Below are positions 21,394 through 22,942 of a DNA stretch of 27,426 bases, one piece after another. The DNA lies in the NCBI GenBank assembly GCA_020723935.1, contig DYHY01000010.1:2438-29863 (forward strand), in the 5' to 3' direction. The translations under genes were made by a program, and so were the position numbers. Under the pieces are notes generated by a model. The model searched no databases. It saw only the letters and a list, made by a program, of their open reading frames with translations, and was not told where the DNA came from. This DNA is from Candidatus Micrarchaeum sp. (GTDB lineage: Archaea > SpSt-1190 > DYHY01). The stretch's first letter is position 1, and each line of letters starts with the position of its first letter.

Positions 21394-21607
21394 TTTCAGA
21401 TTGCTACTTTGAAGTGCTGGTTATTTCTGTTTTCAGTTGATTTTTGCCTTTAAAAACCCCTTAAAAGACAATATTTGCCACTCCGAAAAGGAACATTTAT
21501 GAAAACTGGCGATTCAAGCCTTGCGGTGGTATTTTTCCAATATTGCTGTCCGCCACATGCTTCTTATAGGATATTTCAAAGGACACTTACGAATAAATAT
21601 CGAATCT
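21394..21607. other. AT-richer gene-free stretch
   Basis: Clearly lower in GC than the rest of the window, with several TATA-like strings (TTTAAAA near 21450, TTCTTATAGG near 21561, AATAAATAT near 21592). No open frame here has normal codon bias. It likely holds promoter elements for the structured RNA candidate that follows. Confidence 0.4.
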
Positions 21608-21712
21608 GCGGGAAGATGTAAAGGTGGATCAGGCGCTCGCCTGCTGGTAACAGGTGATGAGCGACTCGCGCCAGAATCGTCTGGTAAACGATTCCGGTTC
21701 GACACATCCCGC
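21608..21712 (+). ncRNA. Structured RNA candidate with two CTGGTAA-loop hairpins
   Basis: GCGGGA at 21608-21613 pairs with TCCCGC at 21707-21712, with TGT/ACA extending the stem after a bulge. Inside are hairpin 1 (GCCTG at 21639-21643, loop CTGGTAA 21644-21650, CAGGT 21651-21655), itself enclosed by CGCTC/GAGCG and alternatively GGCGC/GCGCC, and hairpin 2 with a perfect 7-bp stem (GAATCGT 21674-21680, loop CTGGTAA 21681-21687, ACGATTC 21688-21694). A T-loop-like GGTTCGA follows at 21697-21703. The repeated loop equals the anticodon loop of tRNA-Thr(GGU), yet no D arm or T stem can be formed, so it is not a standard tRNA. Function unknown; strand chosen from the loop and GGTTCGA resemblance. 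Confidence 0.45.
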
Positions 21713-21731
21713 CGGTTTGGTTGGTTTTGGT

Positions 21732-21802
21732 AGTCAAAGTCTTTGTTTTCTAGGTTGGTTAGTCCCAGATTTTCTTTGACTGTTGGGGTAGCTTCGGCTA
21801 TC
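21732..21802 (+). ncRNA. Two further hairpins upstream of ftsZ (one with UUCG loop)
   Basis: AGTCAAAG at 21732-21739 pairs perfectly with CTTTGACT at 21774-21781 around a 34-base loop that can fold internally (TCTAGG/CCCAGA, one mismatch). Directly after, GGTAGC-TTCG-GCTATC at 21787-21802 forms a 6-bp stem with a UUCG tetraloop, a very stable RNA element. They may be the 3' part of the RNA candidate just upstream or its terminator; they end four bases before the ftsZ TATA box. Confidence 0.4.
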
Positions 21803-21806
21803 TGAG

Positions 21807-21813
21807 TATATAG
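21807..21813 (+). promoter_or_regulatory. TATA box for ftsZ
   Basis: TATATAG, about 65 bases before the ftsZ ATG. The transcript would start near 21835 and carry a leader of about 40 bases with the ribosome-binding site GGGGTGA at 21859-21865, unlike the leaderless genes elsewhere in the window. Confidence 0.5.
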
Positions 21814-21874
21814 TCATTTCGGCGGTCCGGTCGATAGGTCGGGCTTGCAGAAACGACGGGGTGAACCGAGAAAA

Positions 21875-22942
21875 ATGGACTACGTCCTGCAAAGTGCGGC
21901 AAACGCGTCAAGGCCTGGCGCCGACTTCGAAGTCGGCCAAGCCAGGATTGTGGTGGTGGGTTGTGGAGGGGCCGGAAACAACACGGCGGACAGGCTCTAC
22001 CGCCTCGGGATACAGGGTGCAACTGTCGTGGCTCTGAACACGGACAAGCTGCACCTCGATGCCCGCGAGGCGGACAGGAAAATACTCATCGGCCGGGACC
22101 TAACGAAGGGCCTCGGCGCTGGCGGCTATCCGGAAGTCGGAAGGGCTGCCGCGGAGGAGGCGAGGAACGACATCAAGGATTCCCTGCGGAACTGCGATCT
22201 CGTCTTCGTCACAGCCGGAATGGGCGGAGGAACCGGGACGGGTTCCGCTCCGATAGTCGCGCAGCTAGCAAAGGAGCAGGGCGCAATAGTCATCGGGGTG
22301 GTCACGATGCCCTTCAAGATGGAACGCGCCAGGATCTTCAAGGCCGAGGCCGGCCTGTACGAGCTTAGGCAGACGACGGACACCGTCATCGTCATAGACA
22401 ACAACAGGCTCGTGGAAGTCGCCGGGAAGCTCCCCATTGCGCAGGCTTTCGCGGTGGCAGACGAGCTCATCGCGACGATGATCAAGGGGATTGTTGAGAC
22501 AATAGCCGTCCCGAGCCTCGTGAACCTAGACTATGCTGACGTCAAGGCGGTCATGTCCAACGGCGGGGTTGCGGTCATCGGCGTCGGCGAGTCGACGAGC
22601 GAGAACCGGGCGGAGGAAGCGGTCAGGAAGGCGCTTTCGAACCCGCTCCTGGATGTCGACTACAAGGGCGCGACGGGCGCGATGCTGCACGTCGTCGGCG
22701 GGCCCGACATGACCCTAGACGAGGTCAACACAATAGGCGATCTCGTCGCCAAGGACATGGATCCCGGAGCCTCGGTCATCTGGGGCGCGAGGATAGACCC
22801 GGCCCTCGAGGGCTCGATCCGCGTGATGACGATAATCACCGGAGTCAAGTCCCCACACATTCTCGGGTCGGTCAACCCGAGGGAGGCGTCCGTGCGCACC
22901 AAGCAGACCGCTAACAGCCTGGGAATACCCGTGCTTGCGTAG
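21875..22942 (+). CDS. ftsZ: Cell division protein FtsZ, 355 aa
   Basis: Tubulin-like GTPase that polymerises into the division ring. Visible motifs are the nucleotide-binding VVVGCGGAGNNT (26-37), the tubulin signature GGGTGTG at 117-123, the sugar/base-contact segment with ALNTD (53-57), and the T7 catalytic loop NLDYADVKAVM, whose acidic residues trigger GTP hydrolysis in the next subunit. The C-terminal domain (SNPLLDVDYKGATGAMLHVVGGPDM) is complete and the end is short, without an evident membrane-tether peptide. The ATG at 21875 is chosen because GGGGTGA lies nine bases upstream; a TTG at 21845 would add ten residues. The gene is intact although neighbouring genes on both sides are broken as printed. 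Whether it is the FtsZ1 or FtsZ2 class needs a tree. Confidence 0.96.
   Translation: MDYVLQSAANASRPGADFEVGQARIVVVGCGGAGNNTADRLYRLGIQGATVVALNTDKLHLDAREADRKILIGRDLTKGLGAGGYPEVGRAAAEEARNDIKDSLRNCDLVFVTAGMGGGTGTGSAPIVAQLAKEQGAIVIGVVTMPFKMERARIFKAEAGLYELRQTTDTVIVIDNNRLVEVAGKLPIAQAFAVADELIATMIKGIVETIAVPSLVNLDYADVKAVMSNGGVAVIGVGESTSENRAEEAVRKALSNPLLDVDYKGATGAMLHVVGGPDMTLDEVNTIGDLVAKDMDPGASVIWGARIDPALEGSIRVMTIITGVKSPHILGSVNPREASVRTKQTANSLGIPVLA

Follow-up and report, generated by a model that had tools for sequence, protein, structure and literature searches.

A shared-loop hairpin array upstream of archaeal ftsZ as part of a candidate divergent non-coding RNA gene

The window analysed here, a stretch of 27,426 nucleotides from a metagenome-assembled genome, was placed in Candidatus Altiarchaeota by the relatives of its ftsZ gene. 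Two hairpins with the same loop lie upstream of ftsZ, in a region with the following observed and predicted features.

21590 to 21602, plus strand: candidate promoter P1, CGAATAAATATCG, facing inward from the far end of the array; its position matches P1 of the relatives
21605 to 21786, minus strand: predicted ncRNA gene of about 180 nt, 5' end near 21785 and 3' end undefined; proposed from P2 and the fold
21608 to 21712, minus strand: domain with a GCGGGA/UCCCGC closure that contains both repeat-loop hairpins (fold, minus z -3.59)
21639 to 21655, minus strand: hairpin B, loop UUACCAG (plus CTGGTAA, 21644-21650), atop a CGCTC/GAGCG stem (sequence and fold)
21674 to 21694, minus strand: hairpin A, stem GAAUCGU/ACGAUUC, loop UUACCAG (plus CTGGTAA, 21681-21687; sequence and fold)
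21713 to 21731, minus strand: unpaired linker CUACCAAAACCAACCAAAC with extra ACCA copies (sequence and fold)
21732 to 21781, minus strand: 5' hairpin AGUCAAAG...CUUUGACU, 8 bp, plus an inner stem (RNAfold minus -12.1 kcal/mol)
21806 to 21823, minus strand: predicted promoter P2, BRE and TATA GCCGAAATGACTATATAC, directed away from ftsZ; 2 mismatches to GAAANNTTTAWAT
21875 to 22942, plus strand: ftsZ (ftsZ1; Pfam Tubulin 2.6e-47, FtsZ_C 7.2e-36)

On the plus strand, the first CTGGTAA loop is carried by the stem GCCTG/CAGGT and the second by GAATCGT/ACGATTC. Both hairpins are enclosed by GCGGGA (21608-21613) and TCCCGC (21707-21712), and the string GGTTCGA stands immediately 5' of TCCCGC. The original prediction had described exactly this arrangement, two unrelated stems with one loop inside a closing stem, and every element was found in its place. 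The 330-nt region upstream of ftsZ was shuffled 24,000 times with its dinucleotide content preserved. A pair of hairpins sharing a 7-nt loop on stems of 5 bp or more arose in 10 of these shuffles (about 4e-4), and shared loops of any length from 5 to 8 arose in 223. Under a stricter two-strand score with 5-mers, the shared-loop p of the window was 0.023. The CTGGTAA hairpin pair occurs once in the genome, of which 0.30 Mb was read. On its own the window is suggestive at most, so the case is carried by the comparative data. The fold of 21608-21712 was stronger on the minus strand (z -3.59, 0/200 shuffles) than on the plus strand (z -2.00, 8/200 shuffles).

CTGGTAA matches an anticodon loop of tRNA-Thr(GGU), and GGTTCGA is similar to a T loop. 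On the RNA level, the likeness covers the 7-nt loop CUGGUAA and a stem of 5-7 bp. From this came the suggestion that the element imitates a tRNA, or is a tRNA-Thr gene that has decayed or been split or permuted. In contrast to an anticodon arm, the loop is present here in two copies, the D and T arms are missing, and the relatives carry loops that are not of the anticodon type (the UUGGCG hexaloop, UUGGGCA and CUGGACA). A scan for unsplit, unpermuted tRNA genes with ARAGORN gave none in the window. The genome has an intact tRNA-Thr(GGT) at G000:C1:33573-33647, and a complete copy elsewhere is what the original prediction had itself named as speaking against its reading. These results contradict the tRNA readings, and we consider them extremely improbable. 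Known families gave no other assignment: no Rfam 15 family scored above the gathering threshold in the window, nor at the array in 13 related loci. RNase P RNA was ruled out, as RF00373 was found at G000:C2:34504-34762.

Similar arrays were found upstream of ftsZ in relatives. The closest relative, G001 (L006/L028), whose FtsZ is 82% identical, has two hairpins with TGGGCA(A) loops and a third free copy of the motif (array p 0.0035). Many Woesearchaeota have 2-6 hairpins upstream of ftsZ with the exact hexaloop TTGGCG, and the stems differ from hairpin to hairpin. Other loop types are CTGGACA in a small group and TTGGGCA, TTGGGA, and GCGGGC or CGGGC in others. The loops are uniform inside each locus and different among lineages. 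Read on the plus strand, they have a UGG core in most lineages; on the minus strand they are CGCCAA (most Woesearchaeota), UGUCCAG and, in the window, UUACCAG, with N-C-C-A as the motif shared by most lineages.

To judge these arrays, the first repeat statistics, built on short AT-rich k-mers, were uninformative and were replaced by other tests. In about 26 kb of pooled ftsZ upstream regions, TTGGC[GA] was present in 105 copies, and its antisense complement in 5. Of the 105 copies, 70 sat on stems of 4 bp or more, versus 20 of 911 on the two strands of the 1.56 Mb around these regions. At p<=0.01, a shared-loop array was detected in 40 of 97 ftsZ upstream regions, a set that includes non-DPANN archaea, where no arrays were seen by eye. 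Covariation was measured on 92 TTGGCG sites chosen without regard to stems. Paired cells amounted to 84.6%, versus 46.4% in shuffles, and the covariation score was 0.894, versus 0.210 in shuffles (0/500) and 0.09-0.32 with slid partners; the shuffles overstate the significance because the sequences are related, and the slid controls preserve this relatedness. Compensatory stem changes around an invariant loop, named in advance as the support to look for, are thus present in relatives. They bear out two parts of the original prediction: that the element is a structured RNA, and that the loop rather than the stem is selected.

The array is specific to ftsZ. In G105, a woesearchaeote with 1.11 Mb of sequence, TTGGCG hairpins with 5 or more Watson-Crick pairs numbered three, all at ftsZ. 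In 281 genomes of its class, a pattern of two A/T-stemmed hairpins gave 4 matches, and all 4 adjoin ftsZ. Regarding a regulon, the 1.11 Mb of G105 held no further TTGGCG hairpins, and neither the motif nor its complement was enriched at translation starts, so no regulon was found. Two hairpins of G105 with TTGGCA loops and stems of at least 5 bp (L158, L224) lie away from ftsZ; the one in L224 is followed by ATTCTAAGAG, which resembles the conserved start-site motif. Different elements were also seen upstream of ftsZ: L093 and L159, from another DPANN group, have the repeated element ACCACCCC...AAAACCCACA without a hairpin array, and L087, which lacks a shared-loop array, folds very strongly on either strand (z -6.24 minus, -4.53 plus).

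A direct DNA similarity search against 101 relatives gave no useful match to the window, because the region diverges too fast, and a search of viral contigs found no relatives. The hairpin model built on Woesearchaeota did not detect the window hairpins, which is expected if the loops differ. The kinship of the window to the Woesearchaeota array was consequently judged from position, layout and the intermediate relative G001, and on these grounds the two arrays are probably homologous. The alternative is that the window pair arose by chance, or is a DNA element of the promoter region, and resembles the Woesearchaeota array by position only. The distinct loop sequence, the failure of the hairpin model and the modest significance of the window alone under the stricter test agree with this explanation. 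It is hard to reconcile with the rarity of equal pairs among the 24,000 shuffles, with the TGGGCA-loop hairpins at the same place in the family mate G001, and with the minus-strand fold of the window's ftsZ upstream region (z -4.21). We therefore regard it as rather improbable.

The strand of the RNA was examined by folding. Over the 40 array loci, the mean fold z was -2.34 on the minus strand versus -1.23 on the plus strand, with the minus value lower in 33 of 40; in loci without an array, the strands were alike (-0.81 vs -0.89). The window's ftsZ upstream region gave -4.21 on the minus versus -0.96 on the plus strand. This evidence is statistical and uneven across loci, the minus strand not being favoured in L101, L058 and L098. 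Consistently, the stem mismatches contained 15 G.U pairs on the minus and 6 on the plus strand (one-sided p 0.039). The plus orientation with CTGGTAA loops, implied at the outset, was revised on these results, the minus strand with UUACCAG loops being better supported. A sister family within Altiarchaeota (G002, G004-G006, G008, G009) carries plus-strand UUGCCCC, UAGCCC and UGAACCC repeats that are weakly structured; its loops are C-rich on the plus strand and the minus bias is absent. These repeats (L029-L033, L039) lie between divergent gatD and ftsZ, mostly as weak hairpins. They could be the same RNA with altered loops, or another element.

Promoter motifs were found on both sides of the array. 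The conserved ATWTAAANNTTTCGG near ftsZ reads CCGAAANNTTTATAT on the minus strand, an archaeal BRE/TATA (P2), and it is followed 20-22 nt downstream on this strand by a conserved AGAA, where a start site is expected. P2 matches GAAANNTTTAWAT with 0-1 mismatches in most aligned loci of the relatives, and in the window it lies about 25 nt upstream of 21785. In most Woesearchaeota loci, a plus-strand TATA (P3, the ftsZ promoter) stands 7 nt beyond P2. Judging from these motifs, P2 and P3 form a divergent promoter pair, P2 serving the RNA and P3 serving ftsZ. Expression of ftsZ in Altiarchaeum is reported from metatranscriptomes (PMC12133352). P2 is present in the window, and P3 is not clear there. 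At the far end of the array, P1 points inward to ftsZ; in relatives it is as strong as P2 and lies at about -245 to -313. Compared with the strong BRE/TATA of the relatives at the same place, P1 of the window is weak, as judged by inspection only. The product of P1 could be an ftsZ leader, an antisense transcript to the ncRNA, or both.

The array can also be read as plus-strand RNA: P1 would then start an ftsZ mRNA with a long 5' leader, and a protein bound to the UGG loops of this leader (CUGGUAA here) would control ftsZ. A strong and conserved P1 facing ftsZ, an array always tied to this gene and a UGG core common to the plus loops of most lineages would all fit. However, the plus strand folds worse in most array loci, the mismatches favour G.U on the minus strand, and ftsZ has its own divergent promoter P3 close to P2. 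We consider the leader unlikely, if still deserving some weight, and it was dropped as the main reading after the strand tests. The original prediction of a two-site protein-binding RNA that may control ftsZ holds in part: multi-site binding is the simplest reason for the repeated loops, and the link to ftsZ stands, but the fold, the G.U bias and P2/P3 point to a divergent gene rather than to an ftsZ leader.

Both strands may also be transcribed as a cis-antisense pair, a P1 leader and a P2 antisense RNA whose complementary loops kiss in the style of plasmid copy control, with YUNR U-turns (UUGG, CUGG) of the sense loops assisting. YUNR is a motif in the recognition loops of antisense systems (PMC4485353). 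The array resembles the plasmid RNAs in that convergent promoters, P1 and P2, flank the hairpin region and most plus loops fit YUNR. It differs from them in its chromosomal place beside ftsZ and in having all loops identical within a locus, and the transcript pair is a prediction from the promoters on both sides. YUNR is missing from L161, L034 and the sister family. Moreover, such pairing requires no loop identity within a locus, so the concerted change of the loops is left unexplained. A cis-antisense pair appears quite unlikely.

In our view, the array most likely belongs to an ncRNA gene that is missing from the catalogues and runs divergently from ftsZ. The predicted product is a small minus-strand RNA whose promoter adjoins that of ftsZ and faces the other way; the short hairpins and single-stranded copies of this RNA would all display one motif. 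Comparison among the relatives gave the hairpins, the stem covariation, one loop type per genome, the ftsZ link and the promoter. Identical loops on unrelated stems within an RNA, and their concerted change across lineages, point to one partner reading all of them. The identical loops may be binding sites of one dedicated trans-acting factor. This would probably be an RNA-binding protein, collected or scaffolded by the RNA in a CsrB/RsmZ-like way. Promoter coupling with ftsZ would link the activity of the factor to division-gene expression. If the specificity of the factor drifts, all loops would change together, giving lineage-specific loops. We give this reading, an ncRNA gene together with a loop-binding partner, an even chance of being right, and our confidence in the loop-binding partner taken alone is lower than that.

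The closest known parallel is found in bacterial sponge RNAs. RsmZ, 127 nt long, folds into four stem-loops and carries eight GGA motifs (PMC4005645). Like CsrB/RsmZ, the array consists of several stem-loops with differing stems and linkers, and displays one short motif in loops of 5-8 nt. The GGA motif (A(N)GGAX) was not found in its minus loops (CGCCAA, UGUCCAG, UUACCAG and similar). The array is archaeal and locked to ftsZ, and its motif is NCCA instead of GGA and varies among lineages. Since the motif differs and no CsrA-type partner is known here, the array RNA is best regarded as lying outside the CsrB/RsmZ family, the likeness being one of layout.

Two kinds of genes near ftsZ were noted. 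L101 (5016-5606) and about 19 other Woesearchaeota array loci encode a winged-helix protein (IclR-type HTH, about 196 aa); in several, its gene ends just before P1, and the protein is a possible local regulator. As the partner of the RNA it was rejected, being present in only about 20 loci and absent from Altiarchaeota. The region upstream of ftsZ in G001 contains two small genes that look like a HEPN/nucleotidyltransferase pair (L006:358-1198).

A literature search, largely outside subscription journals, found no description of such an RNA. Tentatively, and with somewhat less than even confidence, we propose that these RNAs are a hitherto undescribed archaeal class, encoded divergently from ftsZ in Woesearchaeota, Altiarchaeota and their relatives. 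Their loops would co-evolve with a dedicated partner, and the RNA would tie this partner to cell division, on a CsrB-like principle that evolved independently in archaea. The approach used here reaches RNA families that are missed by covariance models, because only the repeated loop is kept while stems and loop sequence vary among lineages. To our knowledge, the control of ftsZ in uncultured small-genome archaea is essentially unknown. If the proposal is true, it would offer a concrete handle on this control, namely an RNA and a motif that are both defined, together with a predicted partner whose specificity shifts in step with the loops.
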